From the NCBI GenBank assembly GCA_014859205.1, contig JACUUR010000003.1, positions 1 to 49,804 on the forward strand: a stretch of 49,804 bases of DNA, given 5' to 3'. Below the pieces are notes generated by a model, which ran no database searches, was not told the DNA's origin, and worked only from the letters and a program-made list of their open reading frames with translations. Both the position numbers and the translations under genes were made by a program. Positions 3,501 to 13,410 of the stretch are shown here, in pieces (within the stretch, counting starts at the first letter, position 1; every line of letters begins with the position of its first letter). This stretch comes from Dehalococcoidia bacterium (GTDB lineage: Bacteria > Chloroflexota > Dehalococcoidia > GIF9 > AB-539-J10).

Positions 3501-3701
3501 GAGTTGCTCCGATGTCAGCGCCGGCAGGCCCTCCGATTGACAGCGACCGTTCATGTATCGGTCGTCTTCTGCCCCACACCAGGCTGGCTGGATTCGTCGG
3601 TCGCGGCCGATTATGATGAGCCCTGTGGTCACTCGAACAGCGCAAGACTCGCCTCGTTCGTGAACGTCAGTGCGAATATGCCGAACTATATACTTGCGGA
3701 C

Positions 3702-3751
3702 TTGACAGAGATAAAGTGCAACGTTACCATATATGCGGATATTCGCATATA
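3702..3751 (+). promoter_or_regulatory. Promoter TTGACA-17-TACCAT with ArsR-type palindromic operator TATATGCGgATATtCGCATATA
   Basis: TTGACA 3702-3707, TACCAT 3725-3730, 22-bp imperfect palindrome 3730-3751 just upstream of the ArsR gene. Confidence 0.7.
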
Positions 3752-3777
3752 AGGATGCAGCGGTTCATCAGCCGACA

Positions 3778-4146
3778 ATGAAAGATCTGGTGAAGGCCTT
3801 CAAGGCCCTGTCCGACGAGACCAGGATCAGAATCCTGAAGGTCTTGCTAGAGCGGGAGTGCTGCGTTTGTGAAATCATGCAGGCGCTTGACATCTCCCAG
3901 TCTCGTACGTCACGCAATCTAAGCGTACTTGAGAACGCCGGATTCGTGAGGTCCAGAAGGAATGGCCTGTGGAAGGTCTACTCGATCAATCAACAAGAGA
4001 TGGGCAATCATGCCAACCGGCTGACTGAATGGCTGCGGGGCGCCGCCATTGACGAGCAGGTCGTACGGCAGGACAGAGAGAGGTTGAGTCATGCGGTGCG
4101 GGTGGGACCGAAAGCGGTGCCCGGGCGACGAAATCCCAAGCATTGA
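3778..4146 (+). CDS. arsR: ArsR/SmtB family metalloregulator
   Basis: KALSDETRIRILKVLLERECCVCEIMQALDISQSRTSRNLSVLENAGFVRSRRNGLWKVY: wHTH with ECCVCE, like the ELCVCD As(III) site of ArsR. ATG at 3778 preferred over the longer ORF at 3733. Confidence 0.92.
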   Translation: MKDLVKAFKALSDETRIRILKVLLERECCVCEIMQALDISQSRTSRNLSVLENAGFVRSRRNGLWKVYSINQQEMGNHANRLTEWLRGAAIDEQVVRQDRERLSHAVRVGPKAVPGRRNPKH

Positions 4147-4159
4147 TTGAGAGTTCAGA

Positions 4160-5266
4160 ATGGGCATTGCGGTCGGAATTCTCAGGGGCGGGCTGGCCGA
4201 GTTGGCCGAGTACTTGCTGGCCCACTTCGTGACCTGTCTGATTCCAGCCTTCTTCATAGCCGGAGGCATTAGCACCTTTCTCTCGCAGGCAGCAATCCTG
4301 AAGTACTTCGGCCACGGGGCCAATAGATGGCTCTCATATGGCGTAGCCTCGGTGTCCGGTACTGTCCTCAGCGTGTGTTCCTGCACGGTGCTGCCGCTCT
4401 TTGCCGGCATATACCGTGTAGGCGCCGGGCTTGGTCCGGCAGTCGCCTTCCTCTATTCCGGACCGGCTATAAACGTGCTGGCGATAGTGTGGACCGCGAG
4501 GATTCTGGGCTTCGACCTGGGAGTTGCCCGGGCAGTCGGTGCGGTGGTCTTTGCTGTGGTGATCGGAATGGTCATGGCCAGGGTGTTCTGCAAAGAGGAG
4601 AGAGAACAGGCGAATGCAGACCTGGCCATCGCTGCAGCAACCGGCGGCATCAAGGGATGGCAGTCGGCGATTCTTCTGTTTAGTCTGATAGGGATCCTCG
4701 TCTCGCTGGCCTGGGGGATCAGGATAGTACCGGAGAAGAACATAGAGACGTGGGCGCTTATTACAGGAGTGGACGTTGCGGTGAACCCCGTCGCGTCCTC
4801 GTTCGCCGGGCTGTTCCTGGTGGCGCTTGCCGTTCTGCTTAAACACTGGCTCACACGTGAGGACATCATGGAGTGGCTCAGAGCAACCTGGTCCTTCTTC
4901 AAACTCGTCGTGCCCTGGCTGCTGGGAGGAATCTTTGTCGCGGGGATGATAGGGGTGGTGCTGCCCAGTGAATGGGTAGTGCGCATTGTGGGCGGAAACA
5001 GCCTGCCCTCGAATTTCATCGCTTCGTTTACCGGCATGCTGTTTTACTTCGCCACGTTGACTGAGGTTCCCATCCTCAGGACGTTCATGGATGCGGGGAT
5101 GGGCAAGGGCCCCGCCCTGGCACTGCTGCTGGCAGGGCCGGCACTGAGCCTCCCCAGCATACTGGTGCTGCGGCGCGTCATGGGAACCAGAAAGACGGTT
5201 GTCTACGCAGGTCTGTCCGTGGTCATGGCCACGACTACCGGATTCATATTCGGGCTTTTGAGATAA
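4160..5266 (+). CDS. Permease, DUF318/UPF0718 family (ArsP-like)
   Basis: Multi-TM; CSCTVLPLFAGIYRVGAGLGPAVAFLYSGPAINVLAI is the family signature. Confidence 0.85.
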   Translation: MGIAVGILRGGLAELAEYLLAHFVTCLIPAFFIAGGISTFLSQAAILKYFGHGANRWLSYGVASVSGTVLSVCSCTVLPLFAGIYRVGAGLGPAVAFLYSGPAINVLAIVWTARILGFDLGVARAVGAVVFAVVIGMVMARVFCKEEREQANADLAIAAATGGIKGWQSAILLFSLIGILVSLAWGIRIVPEKNIETWALITGVDVAVNPVASSFAGLFLVALAVLLKHWLTREDIMEWLRATWSFFKLVVPWLLGGIFVAGMIGVVLPSEWVVRIVGGNSLPSNFIASFTGMLFYFATLTEVPILRTFMDAGMGKGPALALLLAGPALSLPSILVLRRVMGTRKTVVYAGLSVVMATTTGFIFGLLR

Positions 5267-5282
5267 TCGAAGGAGGTGCAAT

Positions 5283-5528
5283 GTGAAGATCGAGATTTGC
5301 GGACCGGGTTGTGCCAAGTGTCACGCCACCGTGGACAATGTGCGCAGGGTGGTTCAAGAACTGGGACTGGAGGACACGGTGGAACTGGAGGAAATCAAGG
5401 ACATAGTGACCATCAGCAAGAAAGGAGTGTTTCTGACCCCTGCGGTTGTCATCGATGGTGTGAAGGTCTCCGAGGGCAGGATCGCCAGGGATGAGGAGAT
5501 CAAGAAGTGGCTTGAGGAGAGAAGATAA
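5283..5528 (+). CDS. Small thioredoxin-like redox-active disulfide protein
   Basis: 81 aa, MKIEICGPGCAKCHATVDNVRRV... with CAKC; family commonly follows DUF318 permeases. Confidence 0.85.
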   Translation: MKIEICGPGCAKCHATVDNVRRVVQELGLEDTVELEEIKDIVTISKKGVFLTPAVVIDGVKVSEGRIARDEEIKKWLEERR

Positions 5529-5530
5529 GA

Positions 5531-5797
5531 ATGGTAGAGACGAAACCATGTTGTAATGCTGCCGCGGCAAGGATGGTAGGCAGGCTGGTTCTGCCGGACG
5601 GGTCTGAGGTAGGCATCCGGAACCTGGAGGGCATCCTCAAGGAGGTCGCCGAACTGAAGTTGACCGACGACGGTTCCATCAGGCGGGAATTGCTGAAAAA
5701 GGTGAAGATCTATAACTATGTAGCACCCGGTGCAGAGACAGATTACTCCGATGCATTGTTCAGTGAATATGAGAAGCTAGCTGAGAGGGACAGGTGA
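5531..5797 (+). CDS. Conserved hypothetical protein with N-terminal Cys-Cys pair
   Basis: 88 aa ORF, starts just after the thioredoxin-like stop; MVETKPCCNAAA... Confidence 0.65.
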   Translation: MVETKPCCNAAAARMVGRLVLPDGSEVGIRNLEGILKEVAELKLTDDGSIRRELLKKVKIYNYVAPGAETDYSDALFSEYEKLAERDR

Positions 5798-6018
5798 GCT
5801 TATCCACACAGGAGCTTGAACACAGACTGAGGACAGCTGAGGACAGGTTCACCCTCTCGAAGCTGAGGGAGGAGATCGACGCTCTCATGCAGAGTCCTGA
5901 GTTCCAGCAGCTTTCCCAGAGAGACAAGAACCGCGTTGAGGACTTGCTGGTGGAACTGCTGGCCAAGGAGGAGCAGTACAAGGGGTGTGATCCCTTCAGG
6001 GCCATCCTGGGACAGTGA
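5794..6018 (+). CDS. Small hypothetical protein (GTG start)
   Basis: 74 aa ORF overlapping the stop of the previous ORF by 4 nt (GTGA), suggesting translational coupling. Confidence 0.6.
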   Translation: MSLSTQELEHRLRTAEDRFTLSKLREEIDALMQSPEFQQLSQRDKNRVEDLLVELLAKEEQYKGCDPFRAILGQ

Positions 6019-6084
6019 AGGCCGCAAGGCACTAAGCTTGCGGAAGGTGAAAGCCGGGAAACCAGAACATAAGGAGGCGCAACA

Positions 6085-6531
6085 ATGGCAGAAGCGAAAC
6101 ACGCCGAAGAAGGGATGAGGACACACGAGAACGTGATATTCTCGTGCTACGGTGGCTTCTCGAACACAGGCATAACCAGCGCGCTGGCCTGCCTCGAGGC
6201 CGTAAAGGAATTGGGTCTGGAAAAGGCGGCAATAGGGTGTCTGGCGGCGCTACCCCTGGGGATCAAGCCTGTGATAGGTAAGGCGGCGGCGGCCCAGCGG
6301 ATCGTCACAGTGGACGGCTGTCCCTCTGAGTGCGCCCGGAAAACGGTCGAGCAGGCCAACCTCTCGCTTACCACGAGCATCGTGCTGACAAGGGATATAG
6401 ACATGAAGAAGAAGCCGCTGCATGAGGACATCGGCCAGGGTGTCAGGGGAGTTATGGAGTACATTTCGGACGACGAAGTGAAGAGGGCAAAAGAACTGAT
6501 AATAAAGGCCATATCGGATGGTGCCAACTAG
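6085..6531 (+). CDS. Putative zinc-binding protein, DGC domain
   Basis: VTVDGCPSECARK carries the DGC motif; good SD (AAGGAGG) upstream. Confidence 0.85.
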   Translation: MAEAKHAEEGMRTHENVIFSCYGGFSNTGITSALACLEAVKELGLEKAAIGCLAALPLGIKPVIGKAAAAQRIVTVDGCPSECARKTVEQANLSLTTSIVLTRDIDMKKKPLHEDIGQGVRGVMEYISDDEVKRAKELIIKAISDGAN

Positions 6532-6628
6532 CGGTGATCGATGGGCGCTAGACTACAGTGTCGCCCATGAAAGGCGCGATGGTATCTGTTTCGCCCCCCG
6601 GAGTCAGTTCAGTGGTAAGGAAACGACT

Positions 6629-7465
6629 ATGCTAAAGGTGAAACCGGCGGATGGCTATCCTCCCGAGGAGGGTCGCTATGTGAGGGGTAACGATTATTCC
6701 CCCGTAGCAGTCTGCGTAATCCTGGACACCTTTGACTTCAAGATACCGCCCGAACTGAACGGGCTTGTGATGGCAGGAGCGGACACCGGTGCCGCCCTCT
6801 CAGGCATGCTGCAGACAGAGAACATAGGCATGGAGAAGATGATCTGCAATATCGCGGCTAATCCGAATATTCGCTACATCGTGCTGTGTGGAAGGGAGTC
6901 AGCCGGGCATCTCCCGGGGCAATCGCTGATGGCGCTCAAGCTCAACGGTGTCGATCAGGGAAGGCGTATCATTGGCACCGAAGCTCCAACGCCACATCTC
7001 CACAATATTCCTGCGCAGTTGATAGACAGGTTCCGGAGTCAGATCATAGACATCGTCGACCTGCTATGTCAGCCTGGCGAAAGCGACACCGGACTCCCGG
7101 GACTAGATCCTAAGATGATAGAAAAGGCAGTCTGGAGCTGCTATCAGGAAGAGCCGGTACGATTTCTACAGTATAGCCTCTATGACTTGGGGGCATACCC
7201 GGAGCCGCCGATACTCCATAAGCTGGCATCAAAGCTGGACCAGCCCCAGCAGGACATTATGCAGCCGGGCAAATCGAATCTGAACATGGGGCTCATGCTC
7301 AATAAATTCCTGCCCAGGACGAACTGCAAAGAGTGTGGACGGCGAACCTGCCTGGCTTTTGCCATCGACCTGGGCAAGGGTAAGGCCCAGCTTCAGGAAT
7401 GCCCTGTGCTGGATCAGCCCGAGTTTAAGGCTGACAGGGAGGCTTTGACCAAGGTCCTAGATTAA
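6629..7465 (+). CDS. MtrA-like corrinoid-binding domain fused to C-terminal CFeSP-like [4Fe-4S] domain
   Basis: NIGMEKMICNIAANPNIRYIVLCGRESAGHLPGQSLMALKLNGVD...RRIIGTEAPTPHLHNIP resembles tetrahydromethanopterin S-methyltransferase subunit A; C-term NKFLPRTNCKECGRRTCLAFAIDLGKGKAQLQECP is CX2CX4CX16C. ATG 6629 with SD preferred over ORF start 6518. Confidence 0.85.
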   Translation: MLKVKPADGYPPEEGRYVRGNDYSPVAVCVILDTFDFKIPPELNGLVMAGADTGAALSGMLQTENIGMEKMICNIAANPNIRYIVLCGRESAGHLPGQSLMALKLNGVDQGRRIIGTEAPTPHLHNIPAQLIDRFRSQIIDIVDLLCQPGESDTGLPGLDPKMIEKAVWSCYQEEPVRFLQYSLYDLGAYPEPPILHKLASKLDQPQQDIMQPGKSNLNMGLMLNKFLPRTNCKECGRRTCLAFAIDLGKGKAQLQECPVLDQPEFKADREALTKVLD

Positions 7466-7505
7466 GCTACGATGACACCTTTGAATTGGGACTGCGTTTG
7501 GACAG

Positions 7506-7538
7506 CCAGTTGCGTCAACTGGTTCCCGGTGACGCAAC
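7506..7538. other. Alternative inverted repeats in the intergenic leader of the ACR3 gene
   Basis: CCAGTTG-cgt-CAACTGG (7506-7522) overlaps GTTGCGTCA-12nt-TGACGCAAC (7509-7538). Confidence 0.7.
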
Positions 7539-7577
7539 GGGTTCAACATGGGCCCCGATCATGCAGAGGGGGCAAAG

Positions 7578-8630
7578 ATGGCTGAGAAAGAACGAAAGCT
7601 CGGTATCTGGGGAAAGTTCCTGACCTTATGGGTAGCGCTGTGTATCGTTGCCGGGGTCGGACTGGGATATCTGTTCCCGGGGCTCTCGGAGTTGCTGGCC
7701 CGACTGGAGGTGCGGGGCATCTCCATACCTATCGCCATATTGCTGTTTGCCATGATCTACCCGATCATGGTGCAGATATGCTGGGAGGAGATCCGAAATG
7801 CATTTCGTTCACCCAAACCGATCGGCCTTACCCTGTTTGCCAATTGGGCCGTCAAGCCTTTCACCATGGCTCTGTTCGCCTGGCTATTCCTGAGCGTGAT
7901 CTTCGGCCGCTACCTTACACCTGAGCAGGTCGAGCAGTACCGCGCCGGAACGATACTGCTCGGCGTCGCCCCGTGTACGGCGATGGTGCTGGTCTGGAGC
8001 TACCTGGCCAGGGGCAACATGGGGCATACGCTGGTGATGACCGCCATAAACTCGCTGAGCATGGTCGTGCTGTACGCGCCTCTGGCCGCTCTGCTCCTGG
8101 GCATCTCTGGCGTGACGGTTCCCTGGGATACCATAGCCCTTTCTGTGGCGTTCTACATCGTGACTCCACTTGTAGCCGGCTTTCTAACGCGCAGGTGGGC
8201 GATCCGACGGAAAGGGCTGGAGTGGTGCGAGTGCACCCTGGAGCCCAACCTGGGGAAGGTCTCTATAATCGCGCTGCTGGTAACACTGGTTGTCCTGTTC
8301 ATGTACCAGGGCCACATCATCGTGGAGCTACCAGCCGTGGTGGGCATGATTACCGTGGCTATACTGGTGAACATTCTGGTGGTCTTCGGCATTACCTATC
8401 TGGCGGCCCGTGTCATGAAACTCAGATACGCCGACGCAATTCCGGCCGCCATCATCGCGGGCAGCAACCACTTCGAGGTGGCGATCGCCGTGGCTACGAC
8501 CCTGTTTGGAGTGGCCTCGGGAGCAGCCCTGGCTACAGTGGTAGGCGTGTTAACTGAGGTGCCAATAATGCTTTCTCTGGTGGCGATTTCGCTGTTGACC
8601 AGAAAGACCTTTCCTAAGCATCTGCGCTAG
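7578..8630 (+). CDS. ACR3-family arsenite efflux transporter
   Basis: LGIWGKFLTLWVALCIVAGVGLGY, GVAPCTAMVLVWSYLARG, AAIIAGSNHFEVAIAVA: ACR3 signatures. SD before ATG 7578. Confidence 0.93.
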   Translation: MAEKERKLGIWGKFLTLWVALCIVAGVGLGYLFPGLSELLARLEVRGISIPIAILLFAMIYPIMVQICWEEIRNAFRSPKPIGLTLFANWAVKPFTMALFAWLFLSVIFGRYLTPEQVEQYRAGTILLGVAPCTAMVLVWSYLARGNMGHTLVMTAINSLSMVVLYAPLAALLLGISGVTVPWDTIALSVAFYIVTPLVAGFLTRRWAIRRKGLEWCECTLEPNLGKVSIIALLVTLVVLFMYQGHIIVELPAVVGMITVAILVNILVVFGITYLAARVMKLRYADAIPAAIIAGSNHFEVAIAVATTLFGVASGAALATVVGVLTEVPIMLSLVAISLLTRKTFPKHLR

Positions 8631-8686: not shown

Positions 8687-8715
8687 TTGCCTGATCATGA
8701 CGTGAGTGCTAGAAT
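8687..8715 (+). promoter_or_regulatory. Candidate promoter TTGCCT-17-TAGAAT for the Ig-like gene cluster
   Basis: Hexamers at 8687-8692 and 8710-8715, about 54 nt before ATG 8769. Confidence 0.45.
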
Positions 8716-8768
8716 ATTGTGTCGGGCAGGTACGGTGGGTCGGCGACCGGCAAGACTCTGCAGGAGAT

Positions 8769-9440
8769 ATGGTGATGAAGAGAATATTTAGCGTAGCGGT
8801 GATCATTGGGGCAGCGGCCATACTGCTACTCGCCTCAGCGTGCACGGGCTCCCCGTTTCCGACTATCAGTAGCCTGACATCAGACGCAACCTGGACGGCT
8901 CCCGGCGATAGTCTGCGGGTTAGTTGTGTAGCCTCGGTGTCCGGCGGCGGCGAACTGAGTTACTCGTGGTCGGCCAGCCGCGGTACGGTAACCGGCTCCG
9001 GCCCCGTGGTTGATTGGACCGCTCCCCAGCAGGTTGGCATGTACGACATCACCGTTGTGGTTACCAGTGCTCAAGGCAGAACAGAGACGCAGTCGCTGAG
9101 CCTGATAGTATCCAATGGCCCTCCGCCGAGTATTCAGGGCCTGGTCGTAACCGCCAGAGACCACACGTACCTGCGGACAACTGCTGCCGGGTACCAAGCC
9201 GCGAGGACATACGAGTACGATATTGAGTGCATGGCTTCGGCCACACAGGGCGAGATTACCTACGAGTGGTCCCATGATGGAGGCGAGATCGACGGAGACG
9301 GCTCAGCCGTTATCTGGACAGCTCCGGATAGGGACGGCCGGGTCACAGTCACCGTCAAGGTCTTCGATGGTGAAGGTAACTGGGCAAGTAAGAGCCTGGT
9401 CTTTCAGGTGGTAGACTGCGAGGCATGTGTGGTCTGGTGA
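8769..9440 (+). CDS. Lipoprotein with two Ig/PKD-like domains (paralog 1)
   Basis: Signal peptide with lipobox-like LASAC; repeated ...YEWSHDGGEIDGDGSAVIWTAP... domains. ORF starts at 8706, ATG 8769/8775 preferred. Confidence 0.75.
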   Translation: MVMKRIFSVAVIIGAAAILLLASACTGSPFPTISSLTSDATWTAPGDSLRVSCVASVSGGGELSYSWSASRGTVTGSGPVVDWTAPQQVGMYDITVVVTSAQGRTETQSLSLIVSNGPPPSIQGLVVTARDHTYLRTTAAGYQAARTYEYDIECMASATQGEITYEWSHDGGEIDGDGSAVIWTAPDRDGRVTVTVKVFDGEGNWASKSLVFQVVDCEACVVW

Positions 9441-9520
9441 TATGGAGAGAAGAGTGACGGTGTACGCTCGGGATGCATGATCAAGACGGTAATGAGGGTG
9501 GATCTGCAGTAGGTGGAAGC

Positions 9521-10474
9521 ATGAAGACAAAGACTCATCTGATCATCGCGGCGATGGTAGCTCTGGCGGTGACTATGCTCATATTGTCCTGCACTGAGGA
9601 GGCTGACCAGCCGCTCGACCCCGATCCACCCGTGATCCAAAGTCTGGAGGCCGAATCGACCAGTGTTTTCCACTCCGAGAGCATACAGATTACGTGCACT
9701 GTTTCAGCCCCCGACGGCGCTGAACTAACCTATGAATGGTGGGCCAGTGGAGGTGAGGTAGACGGACAGGGAGCCACGGTCGTCTGGACGGCTCCGGACT
9801 CGGAAGGCTCCTATGATGTCGGTGTGATAGTGACCGATGGGCATGGTGGTGGCGCCATGCAGCACGTGACCATAGAGGTGATGGCCAACAGGCCGCCTGT
9901 AATCAGCAGCATGACGGCCAGTGCGGACTGGGCTTTTCCCGGTGGGGGCGTGACGATTACCTGCCACGCTGAGGACCCGGACGGTCATGCCATAACCTAC
10001 GAGTGGTCGGCGAGCGCAGGGCATATCGAAGGGACGGGGCGAGAGGTGACGTGGACCGCGCCCGACCCATTGGGCGAATACAGCGTAACCGTTGTGGTGA
10101 GCGACGAGTACGGAGGCCTGGACACGAGGACACTCCAGATCAGCGTAATGCCGGAGCAGCCACCGATCATTGAAGCTCTACTTGTCACAGCCAACCACCG
10201 CTGGCTGAGAACACGCTCCTTTGGATATCAGGTTGGGTACGCTCAAGAGTACAGCATCGAGTGTGTTGCCTCCCATCCCGAGGGCTCTGAGCTACACTAC
10301 GAATGGACATGCAACGGTGGCGAGATAGTGGAGACCTCAGAGGACGGTGCCACGGTCACCTGGGTGGCTCCCAACACATCGGTGTACGTTACGGTCACGG
10401 TTACGGTGTCCGATATCGGCGGCAATACTGCCACTAGAAGCGTAGATTTGGAGGTGATCCCCTGCTGGACCTGA
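9521..10474 (+). CDS. Lipoprotein with three Ig/PKD-like domains (paralog 2)
   Basis: Signal peptide ending LILSC; three tandem 80-100 aa domains of pattern PPVI..(T)C..D/E..YEW..G..G..VTWTAP..VTVVVSD. Confidence 0.78.
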   Translation: MKTKTHLIIAAMVALAVTMLILSCTEEADQPLDPDPPVIQSLEAESTSVFHSESIQITCTVSAPDGAELTYEWWASGGEVDGQGATVVWTAPDSEGSYDVGVIVTDGHGGGAMQHVTIEVMANRPPVISSMTASADWAFPGGGVTITCHAEDPDGHAITYEWSASAGHIEGTGREVTWTAPDPLGEYSVTVVVSDEYGGLDTRTLQISVMPEQPPIIEALLVTANHRWLRTRSFGYQVGYAQEYSIECVASHPEGSELHYEWTCNGGEIVETSEDGATVTWVAPNTSVYVTVTVTVSDIGGNTATRSVDLEVIPCWT

Positions 10475-10486
10475 TAGAGGATAAGC

Positions 10487-10503
10487 AGCCCTGGTTCAGG
10501 GCT
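10487..10503. repeat. Hairpin AGCCCTG-gtt-CAGGGCT, copy A
   Basis: Perfect 7-bp arms, 3-nt loop; identical copy at 11512-11528. Confidence 0.7.
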
Positions 10504-10548
10504 GAGTCTTCGCGGGAGCCGGCGTGGCTATTGATCTGAGGTGAGATC

Positions 10549-11499
10549 ATGCACAGGAAGAAGCTGATAGTCGTCGCGGTGATCATGGCGATAGCCGTGC
10601 CTCTCTCGATTGTGGCAGTGCTGGCGGCTGCCAGCCCTCCTCCGGTCATTGAGAGCCTGGAGGCTGACCCCGAGAGGGTTTTTCCTTCGGGGAGCACGCA
10701 GATTGTGTGTACGGTGTCAGGCCCTGATGGTGCTTCACTAAGCTATGAATGGTGGGCAAGCGAGGGCGAAATAGACGGAGACGGTGCGATGGTTACCTGG
10801 ACGGCGCCCGGTGTTGAGAAGATCTGCCACATCAGTGTCACAGTCAGCGATGGACGCGGCCGCCAGGATACCGACACCCTAGTCATCGTCGCGAAACACA
10901 ATCAGCCGCCGGTAGTTCACAGCCTGACTGCCGAGCCGAACTGGACTACTCCCTCGGGCAGCCTCCGGTTGATATGCGATGCTGAAGACCCTGATGGTCA
11001 TACCCTCAGTTACCAGTGGTCGGCAGAGGCCGGGCATTTCGAGGGCACGGGAGCTGAGGTTACCTGGCTGGCTCCCGAACAGACAGGCATATATGAGATC
11101 ACAGTTGTCGTGAGCGATGATTACGGCGGCTCGGCGGCGGACGCGCTATATGTCAGCGTAATGCGGGGTCAGCCACCAGTCGTCGAAGCTCTGCTTGTCA
11201 CAGCGACACATAAGTACCTAAGGCCATCGGCCTCCTCCGAGAGGTATGAGGTGGGCGAAGGGAAGACGTTTGCCATCGAATGCATCGCTTCACATCCAGA
11301 TGGTGTCCAGCTAGCGTATGAGTGGGAGTACGATGCCGGTGAGATAACAGGTGCCTCGGAGGATGAGTCTTCGATCACGTGGACCGCCCCGAGTCGGGGC
11401 GTGACAGCCACAGTCACAGTGACAACATCCGATCCCTCAGGCAACATGGCTCGCAGGAGCGTGAGCCTGGAGGTGGTGTCCTGTTCGAGATTCGGCTGA
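10549..11499 (+). CDS. Exported protein with three Ig/PKD-like domains (paralog 3)
   Basis: Signal peptide; same three-domain architecture as 9521-10474. Confidence 0.78.
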   Translation: MHRKKLIVVAVIMAIAVPLSIVAVLAAASPPPVIESLEADPERVFPSGSTQIVCTVSGPDGASLSYEWWASEGEIDGDGAMVTWTAPGVEKICHISVTVSDGRGRQDTDTLVIVAKHNQPPVVHSLTAEPNWTTPSGSLRLICDAEDPDGHTLSYQWSAEAGHFEGTGAEVTWLAPEQTGIYEITVVVSDDYGGSAADALYVSVMRGQPPVVEALLVTATHKYLRPSASSERYEVGEGKTFAIECIASHPDGVQLAYEWEYDAGEITGASEDESSITWTAPSRGVTATVTVTTSDPSGNMARRSVSLEVVSCSRFG

Positions 11500-11511
11500 T
11501 AGAAGACAGAC

Positions 11512-11528
11512 AGCCCTGGTTCAGGGCT
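11512..11528. repeat. Hairpin AGCCCTG-gtt-CAGGGCT, copy B
   Basis: Identical to 10487-10503 and at the same position downstream of a paralogous stop codon. Confidence 0.7.
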
Positions 11529-11584
11529 CAATCCTCCGGAAAGCGACCTTCCTTATGCAGGATGCTCCGTCTCGACACAGGAGT

Positions 11585-11614
11585 TTGCACAGAGAGCACA
11601 TTCTAGGTTAGTAT
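11585..11614 (+). promoter_or_regulatory. Candidate promoter TTGCAC-18-TAGTAT abutting a start codon
   Basis: -10 at 11609-11614, 6 nt before ATG 11621; no SD visible. Confidence 0.4.
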
Positions 11615-11620
11615 CTATCG

Positions 11621-12103
11621 ATGAGCAACTGGTTCGTCGGATCGCTCAGAGAGGCCTTCCGGGACCGACACAGGAAGTATGTGACCGTATCGCTGCTGGT
11701 GGCGGGGATAACGTTGATAGTGATCGGGCAGCAGGCGGCAGGGCGGGGTCCCGCGATGCCGCAGGAGCCCCCAGACATCGAAGCCGTGCTGGTTACCAAG
11801 GACCGTCACGGACACTGTTATCTCAGAACGGACGAGTCGGGCTATAAGGTCGGCAGGGGCCAGAAATACGACATCGAGTGTGTCGTCTCAGACACAGGCT
11901 TCGAGTTGTTCTATGAATGGTTATGCGAGGACGGCGAGATTGCTGCTCAGGATGGATCCATGATAACCTGGGTCGCCCCTAATACATCCACGCACGTTAC
12001 GGTGACGGTCACAGTCTCTGATGCAGCCGGCCATGCAGTCAGCGAAGACATAGCGATCAACGTAGTCTCTTGCTCGGTCTGTACGTTTGGCAGATGCCCA
12101 TAG
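11621..12103 (+). CDS. Membrane-anchored protein with one Ig/PKD-like domain (paralog 4)
   Basis: N-terminal anchor FRDRHRKYVTVSLLVAGITLIVIG plus the C-terminal module of paralogs 1-3; ends ...SCSVCTFGRCP. Confidence 0.7.
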   Translation: MSNWFVGSLREAFRDRHRKYVTVSLLVAGITLIVIGQQAAGRGPAMPQEPPDIEAVLVTKDRHGHCYLRTDESGYKVGRGQKYDIECVVSDTGFELFYEWLCEDGEIAAQDGSMITWVAPNTSTHVTVTVTVSDAAGHAVSEDIAINVVSCSVCTFGRCP

Positions 12104-12216
12104 ATAGATGGAAGACATAGCTGAGAGAATACCGCTCCTCGTGGGCACTTGCGTTGCGGGTGCATCACCAGGAGAGAACCCCAGAAAGGGGGAGCTTTCT
12201 CAGGCGAGACTTGTCA

Positions 12217-13410
12217 ATGCATAAGAGGTTGATCGGCTTTCTCGGGAACACATTTCGGGACCGTTTCAAGAGATATCTCATCACATCTCTTATAATCGTG
12301 GGGGTCGTTTTAGCGGTCACAGGCAATGGTTCGCCCGCGCCCATTGACGGTGAGGGTTTCGAGGTCCATTTCTTCTATGTCACCGGCTGCCCTGGCTGTG
12401 ACGCGCAGAAACCGTTTAACACTCAGTTGGCTGCTCGGTACCCTATGATCGCTATTATCGAGCATAATGCCATTGACGAGGCCCCCCTGTTGCGACAGAT
12501 GCTTGACGATCGTGGGATCGATGAATCGCCACCGGTCCCGGTAACAATCTTCGACAACCAGGTCTTCATGGGCTGGGTTTCGGAGGAAACAACCGGTGCG
12601 GAGATTGAGGATGCCCTACGGCAATGCCTGGACGGGGAGTGTCCACCGCCGACGGGCAGGGATCCCGAGGAAGGAATCGACATTCCGATCTTCGGGCGAA
12701 TCATATTCGCCGATTACTCGCTGGCGGCACTCGCCGTGATCCTGGGTATTGTAGACGGTTTCAATCCCTGTGCCCTCTGGGTACTTCTCTATCTTATATC
12801 ACTGGTAGCAACGCTGAGAGATAAGAAGAGAATCTGGCTGATCGTCGGCTCGTTTGTGCTGGCTTCCGGCGTCATATACTTCCTGTTGATGACGGCGTGG
12901 CTCAACGTCTTCCTGCTTATCGGCTTTGTCCGCCCGGTGATGGTCGTCATCGGCCTGGTGGCCCTGGGTGGAGGAATACTGCAGATTAAGGAGTCAATCC
13001 AGTCAAAGGGAGAAATCGTCTGTGAGGTCACCAGCCAGGAGTCGCAGCAGAAGACAATGGCCAAAATGCAGCGAATAGTATCCAGGCCGGTCACCATCGC
13101 CACCATACTGGGGATTATCGCTCTGGCCTTCACGGTGAACTCCATCGAGTTCGTCTGTTCAGCGGCGATTCCGGCCGTCTTCACCCAGGTGCTGGCCTTG
13201 AGCAATCTCACCACTGTCCAATACTACGGCTACATCCTGCTATACGTGTTCTTCTTCATCCTTGACAATCTGATCATCTTCGGCGGGGCTGCATTCGCCA
13301 TGACATCCAGCATGGGAGTCAAGTATGCGAAGTATGCCCGGCCGATCGGGGCCGTCATACTGATATTGCTGGGCGTCCTGCTCCTCTTCTTCCCGGGCTG
13401 GCTGCGTTAG
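12217..13410 (+). CDS. Thioredoxin/glutaredoxin-like domain fused to DsbD/CcdA-like membrane domain
   Basis: VHFFYVTGCPGCDAQKPF (CPGC) followed by six or more TM helices with FNPCALW and FVCSAAIPA motifs. ATG 12217 preferred over 12154. Confidence 0.8.
   Translation: MHKRLIGFLGNTFRDRFKRYLITSLIIVGVVLAVTGNGSPAPIDGEGFEVHFFYVTGCPGCDAQKPFNTQLAARYPMIAIIEHNAIDEAPLLRQMLDDRGIDESPPVPVTIFDNQVFMGWVSEETTGAEIEDALRQCLDGECPPPTGRDPEEGIDIPIFGRIIFADYSLAALAVILGIVDGFNPCALWVLLYLISLVATLRDKKRIWLIVGSFVLASGVIYFLLMTAWLNVFLLIGFVRPVMVVIGLVALGGGILQIKESIQSKGEIVCEVTSQESQQKTMAKMQRIVSRPVTIATILGIIALAFTVNSIEFVCSAAIPAVFTQVLALSNLTTVQYYGYILLYVFFFILDNLIIFGGAAFAMTSSMGVKYAKYARPIGAVILILLGVLLLFFPGWLR

Follow-up and report, generated by a model that had tools for sequence, protein, structure and literature searches.

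Among the genes on a 49,804-nucleotide stretch from the genome of a Dehalococcoidia bacterium (contig JACUUR010000003.1 of assembly GCA_014859205.1; referred to below, at its full length, as the window) is an arsenic (ars) gene island in which the arsenite efflux permease ACR3 is directly preceded by an unusual fusion protein that joins a corrinoid domain of the MtrA family to a [4Fe-4S] domain (here, MtrA-FeS). Profile searches, together with reading of the open reading frames (ORFs), recovered all eight genes that an initial annotation of the region had predicted, colinear on the + strand from arsR, with its ECCVCE motif, to ACR3 (Table 1). Both an ArsR with the CxC As(III) motif and an ACR3 equivalog are present, as in an ars operon of the ACR3 type. 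Some gene starts required attention: the arsR ORF has an alternative opening at 3733, comparison with relatives places the MtrA-FeS start at the ATG at 6629 rather than at the ORF start (6518), and ACR3 probably begins at the ATG at 7578 rather than at the ORF opening at 7548.

Table 1. Features of the ars island in the window, with standalone Fe-S proteins of related islands (coordinates prefixed by locus)
Feature	Position	Strand	Evidence and remarks
Sigma-70-like promoter, TTGACA-17-TACCAT	3702..3730	+	Consensus scan, 10/12 matches; a scan match, not proof of function
Palindrome CCATATATGCGGAT/ATTCGCATATAAGG, candidate ArsR operator that overlaps the -10 region	3727..3754	.	Inverted repeat
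arsR, As(III)-type repressor, ECCVCE motif	3778..4146	+	NF033788 over cut-off; CxC common to relatives' ArsR
ArsP_1 (DUF318) permease	4160..5266	+	PF03773, 1.6e-74; NF033936/NF040736 below cut-off
ArsE/MTH895-type small thioredoxin, CAKC	5283..5528	+	TIGR00412, 77.1 bits vs. cut-off 62
88-aa protein (p88)	5531..5797	+	Also in sister ars islands L052, L054, L177, L179
74-aa protein (p74)	5794..6018	+	Also in ars islands L004, L006, L179
DGC-domain protein	6085..6531	+	PF08859, 1.9e-16; also in ars islands L007, L043, L045, L046, L178, L179
MtrA-FeS, corrinoid/[4Fe-4S] fusion, 278 aa	6629..7465	+	PF04208, PF04060; clade of 16; model pLDDT 90.8, matches 5laa/5l8x
MtrA corrinoid domain	6635..7066	+	Glu64 (codon 6818), His94 (codon 6908) = Glu54/His84 of MtrA
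CFeSP-type [4Fe-4S] domain, Cys 233, 236, 241, 258	7310..7408	+	PF04060; Cys invariant in A1
ACR3 arsenite efflux permease	7578..8630	+	TIGR00832, 357.7 bits vs. cut-off 282.8
Four tandem PKD-repeat proteins	8706..12103 (8706-9440, 9473-10474, 10549-11499, 11621-12103)	+	Family also in ars islands L051, L054, L177-L181
Thioredoxin-like + DsbD/CcdA-like membrane protein	12154..13410	+	hhalign: island thioredoxins E=3e-5, DsbD E=0.0095
Standalone Fe-S protein	L052:11699-12238, L054:11438-11980, L177:9504-10103, L178:8384-8923, L179:8071-8610

The two-domain architecture was already recognized in the initial annotation, and sequence profiles, ligand residues, and fold all agree with it. MtrA-FeS matches PF04208 (3.2e-36; 125 bits against a cut-off of 25) and PF04060 (6.2e-12), its Fe-S motif is an exact C-x2-C-x4-C-x16-C, and a phmmer search of the PDB returned MtrA and, separately, the N-terminal domain of the gamma subunit of the corrinoid iron-sulfur protein (CFeSP). 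In MtrA, His84 is the lower cobalt ligand and Glu54 is part of its hydrogen-bond network (PMC4915002); the corresponding His94 and Glu64 are present in every MtrA-FeS row of the alignment. An AlphaFold2 model built from an alignment of 55 family members (mean pLDDT 90.8) was compared with known structures using Foldseek. At E<0.001, only MtrA structures were matched, namely 5l8x (E=4e-17), the cobalamin complex 5laa (E=4e-16), and Mtr complex entries, with TM-scores to target of 0.89-0.92 and 34% identity for 5l8x/5laa. Weaker than this threshold were the N-terminal [4Fe-4S] domains of CFeSP (4c1n, 4djd, 2ycl), matched with probability 1.00 and with 44-50% identity and rmsd 1.2-2.3 over ~55 residues. 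Corrinoid binding thus has good support, as a reading of family membership rather than a measured property, and the pairing of a corrinoid domain with an Fe-S domain of the reductive-activation type suggests chemistry of the Co(I)/methyl-Co(III) kind. Two cysteines, Cys73 and Cys171, are kept in the ars clade and are lacking in canonical methanogen MtrA in the alignment; they may be considered candidate arsenic ligands.

A methanogenesis-type Mtr complex was considered and rejected, because the protein falls below the cut-off of the mtrA equivalog TIGR01111 (124 vs. 249 bits), because its neighbors are ars genes and not mtrB-H, and because MtrA-FeS is the sole MtrA of the window genome. What it shares with methanogen MtrA (methyl-H4MPT:CoM methyltransferase; PF04208; 5laa, 5l8x) is the corrinoid-binding fold, with the cobalt-ligand His and hydrogen-bonding Glu, whereas it lies in a separate clade, has no membrane anchor and no mtrB-H, and carries a fused Fe-S domain alongside ars neighbors. 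Similarly, its Fe-S domain resembles the N-terminal [4Fe-4S] domain of the CFeSP large subunit AcsC/CdhE, which serves reductive activation of the corrinoid. However, its corrinoid domain belongs to the MtrA family (the Pfam search gave no match to PF03599, the corrinoid domain of the CFeSP large subunit/HgcA family), and the island has no AcsD partner.

MtrA domains were found in 28 of the 393 genomes sampled from the window's class (12 of the 28 have the FeS type), and some MtrA occurs in 21 of 345 genomes from the phylum of a deltaproteobacterial relative and in 81 of 349 from that of a bathyarchaeal relative. A tree built from 69 MtrA domains unites MtrA-FeS in one clade of 16 rows (support 100/99) drawn from Chloroflexota and Deltaproteobacteria, and canonical methanogen MtrA forms a separate clade. 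An enclosing clade of 32 rows adds further ars-island members, from Bathyarchaeota and others, that lack the CFeSP-type Fe-S domain; in the bathyarchaeal ars island L007, the MtrA domain has a different fusion, an N-terminal 2[4Fe-4S] ferredoxin. ACR3 or ArsP genes are in the locus for 15 of the 16 MtrA-FeS genes, and the remaining one (L005) begins at a contig end. In 10 cases (the window and L004, L043, L044, L046, L047, L049, L050, L054, and L137), the next gene, at <=100 bp, is ACR3. Recurrence beside ars genes was a point at which the initial annotation had laid itself open to refutation, and MtrA-type proteins do recur, next to arsR/ArsP/ACR3, in Chloroflexota, Deltaproteobacteria, and Bathyarchaeota. 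Labels are clustered on the tree beyond all shuffles, although near-copies add to this clustering.

In a tree, ACR3 proteins fall into two deep types, each of which is found together with MtrA-FeS, so the two genes have not been passed down as a single block; the window ACR3 itself groups among ACR3s of relatives without MtrA. The association of MtrA-FeS with ars genes was thus assembled more than once, and outside biochemistry we regard this as the best argument that they are functionally linked. It could be supposed that MtrA-FeS is unrelated to arsenic and reached ars islands by chance or by linked transfer, as might be expected of a gene that is optional within the genus, but an association at 15 of 16 loci, across several families and two bacterial phyla, with two ACR3 types and differing gene orders, makes such hitchhiking highly improbable.

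Other MtrA relatives were encountered along the way. A plasmid search gave only distant homologs (35-40% identity), and the one inspected was a DUF4346 fusion without ars neighbors. Some distant bacterial MtrA proteins (L136, L140, L141, L148, and L129, some of them PterinBD-DUF4346 fusions) directly adjoin ArsR-family regulators, several of which lack the CxC arsenic motif. Many genomes in the phylum of the bathyarchaeal relative have a stand-alone MtrA homolog of ~155-160 aa (e.g., L164:7719-8183), with no ars neighbors in the single case inspected.

Five genomes of the same genus without an intact MtrA gene retain the ars island (L177-L181). ArsR, ArsP, and ACR3 are present in all five, with ArsE, p88, p74, DGC, ArsM, CcdA, and PKD proteins in varying subsets. 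The MtrA gene is absent from L177, L178, L180, and L181, and L179 has a decayed remnant of ~65 codons (L179:5671-5868, - strand) directly before acr3, the slot occupied by the full gene in the window, in an island that is otherwise intact. Islands with or without MtrA may also have a standalone ~180-aa protein with the same CFeSP-type Fe-S domain and a unique N-terminal region (Table 1; also in L180 and, cut by the contig end, in L051). Given that the gene may be intact, decayed, or missing in the same island, and that two non-orthologous ACR3 types pair with it, MtrA-FeS is a dedicated but optional component of anaerobic ars islands.

We tested 15 MtrA-FeS genomes for ACR3, ArsM (counted when over the cut-off at a strict E limit), and CFeSP, and each was present in 14 of the 15 (for CFeSP, as family proteins over the cut-off). 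In same-genus genomes without MtrA-FeS, ArsM occurs in eight and ACR3 in five of 10. The window genome has a second ars island (L073:1-5989; G000:C52) that encodes an ArsP-type permease, ArsM (passing the NCBIfam cut-off), thioredoxin, DsbD, a ferredoxin-like (HgcB-like) protein, an ArsC-like low-molecular-weight phosphatase (LMWP), and NifS. Because this island holds ArsM and the ArsC-like protein, the host cell can probably methylate arsenic via S-adenosylmethionine (SAM), and may reduce arsenate, independently of MtrA-FeS. The lack of ArsM and ArsC remarked upon in the initial annotation therefore applies to the window, not to the whole genome, and the idea that MtrA-FeS stands in for either was rejected as stated; replacement of ArsM is unlikely, ArsM being present in nearly all MtrA-FeS genomes.

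These findings also bear on a purely redox role, in which a Co(I)/Fe-S protein would take the place of ArsC, producing the exportable trivalent form by reduction of As(V) or methylarsenate, with no methyl transfer. The window without ArsC and the several thiol-redox genes of ars islands fit such a role, but we consider it distinctly improbable, because the second island has its ArsC-like LMWP protein, LMWP genes lie in or near the island of several relatives (G032:C20, G177:C83, G330:C43), and a corrinoid would be an unusual reductant for these substrates.

Regarding the remainder of the island, the palindrome upstream of arsR occurs just once in the window, against 0 sites expected from shuffles, and similarly placed palindromes precede arsR in relatives L052, L179, L045, and L137. 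No Pfam or NCBIfam match was obtained for p88 or p74. The island does not end with ACR3 at 8630, as initially proposed, but is extended by the PKD-repeat proteins and then by the membrane protein at 12154-13410. PKD domains were recognized by Pfam on the L051 homolog, several of the proteins have C-terminal Cys motifs (e.g., CxxC or CxC), and the family recurs in the ars islands of sister genomes both with and without MtrA; a possible role is extracytoplasmic metal(loid) binding. The 12154-13410 protein has no Pfam match and can tentatively be called CcdA-like. Upstream of the island, ORF 1811-2650 resembles a SAM hydroxide adenosyltransferase (DUF62), as recognized by eye only.

Our preferred reading, to which we assign a probability of roughly 0.4, is that this ars island belongs to a strict anaerobe and is controlled by arsenite, and that its MtrA-FeS performs O2-independent, corrinoid-based demethylation of methylarsenicals. 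Binding of As(III) would cause ArsR to release the promoter. MtrA-FeS would hold its corrinoid base-off/His-on through His94, and the fused [4Fe-4S] domain would donate low-potential electrons that maintain the cobalt as Co(I). This would accept a methyl group from a methylarsenical, yielding inorganic As(III) for export by ACR3, with the ArsP-type permease as an exit for surplus methylarsenite (MAs(III)). Finally, the methyl-cobalt would unload to the Wood-Ljungdahl methyl pool of the cell, for which the CFeSP-family proteins of 14 of the 15 genomes are a possible methyl sink (or source). Corrinoid binding, cobalt reduction, As(III) sensing, and As(III) export are predicted from the families involved; that the methyl partner is an arsenical, and that the direction is demethylation, we only infer. 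No methyltransferase partner gene was identified in the MtrA-FeS ars islands, so that the corrinoid may react with a small molecule without an intermediary. ArsM, ArsP, and ArsI would likely share substrates with MtrA-FeS, as members of a shared island, but ArsM is SAM-dependent and ArsI is an O2-dependent dioxygenase, and MtrA-FeS has neither fold.

Several points weigh against this proposal. ArsM is also found in eight of the 10 same-genus genomes that lack MtrA-FeS, and the islands there are otherwise complete, so resistance does not depend on the protein. Only the neighboring and co-occurring genes indicate which way the reaction would run. In addition, transfer of a methyl cation to Co(I) best fits pentavalent methylarsenicals, because heterolytic transfer from an As(V) methyl species leaves As(III) behind, yet demethylation by the methanogen Methanomassiliicoccus was reported with the trivalent dimethylated form, DMAs(III) (PMC10579292), which as a substrate would require another electron path. 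Lastly, the ArsP_1 permease scores below the cut-off of the named NCBIfam efflux equivalogs, so that MAs(III) is only a putative substrate for it.

The main rival is the reverse reaction, in which MtrA-FeS would methylate As(III) with a Wood-Ljungdahl methyl group, in a manner similar to HgcAB, and the ArsP-type permease would export the product. HgcA (corrinoid) and HgcB (a 2[4Fe-4S] ferredoxin) are a known metal methylator, a corrinoid and Fe-S pair of anaerobes whose genes are often beside arsR/acr3/arsM (PMC7438021); moreover, the MtrA domain of L007 is fused to a ferredoxin, and an ArsP-type gene lies within the island. However, HgcA has a PF03599-type corrinoid domain, which MtrA-FeS lacks, plus membrane helices, its ferredoxin partner HgcB is a protein of its own, and the corrinoid parts are not homologous. 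A second methylator would be redundant where ArsM already covers methylation, as in 14 of the 15 MtrA-FeS genomes, and the usual immediate neighbor is ACR3, not the ArsP-type gene. We therefore regard methylation as unlikely. Of the two proposed chemistries, demethylation that feeds As(III) to ACR3 is the more likely, given that the cell has ArsM, that the adjacent gene is ACR3, and that ArsI would have no oxygen to use.

Alternatively, MtrA-FeS might be a stress isoform rather than an arsenic enzyme, protecting or replacing a C1 corrinoid methyl carrier that arsenic inhibits. The hosts have CFeSP-family proteins whose Fe-S domain is of this type, and the arsenic-binding site is only a candidate, but the location in ars islands rather than Wood-Ljungdahl clusters, the lack of a partner methyltransferase beside the gene, and the clade-specific Cys73/Cys171 make this improbable. 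Leaving direction aside, we see a nearly even chance that MtrA-FeS is an O2-independent corrinoid enzyme that makes or breaks C-As bonds, an undescribed class of arsenic enzyme and a potential equivalent of ArsI for anaerobic conditions.

We found no prior description, in the open-access literature, of MtrA/Mtr-type proteins in ars operons or of the DGC domain with arsenic. The sole C-As demethylase named in the arsenic literature cited here is ArsI, an O2-using dioxygenase (PMC10579292). Under anoxia, methylarsenite serves microbes as a weapon, methylated arsenic harms rice in flooded soils, and how DMAs (dimethylated arsenic) becomes demethylated is reported as unclear (PMC11653729, PMC10579292). 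The corrinoid/Fe-S protein, encountered repeatedly in the ars islands of both bacterial and archaeal anaerobes, is a concrete gene candidate for anoxic arsenic demethylation and, if the proposal is correct, would be the second case, after HgcAB, in which corrinoid chemistry is joined to metal(loid) resistance genes.

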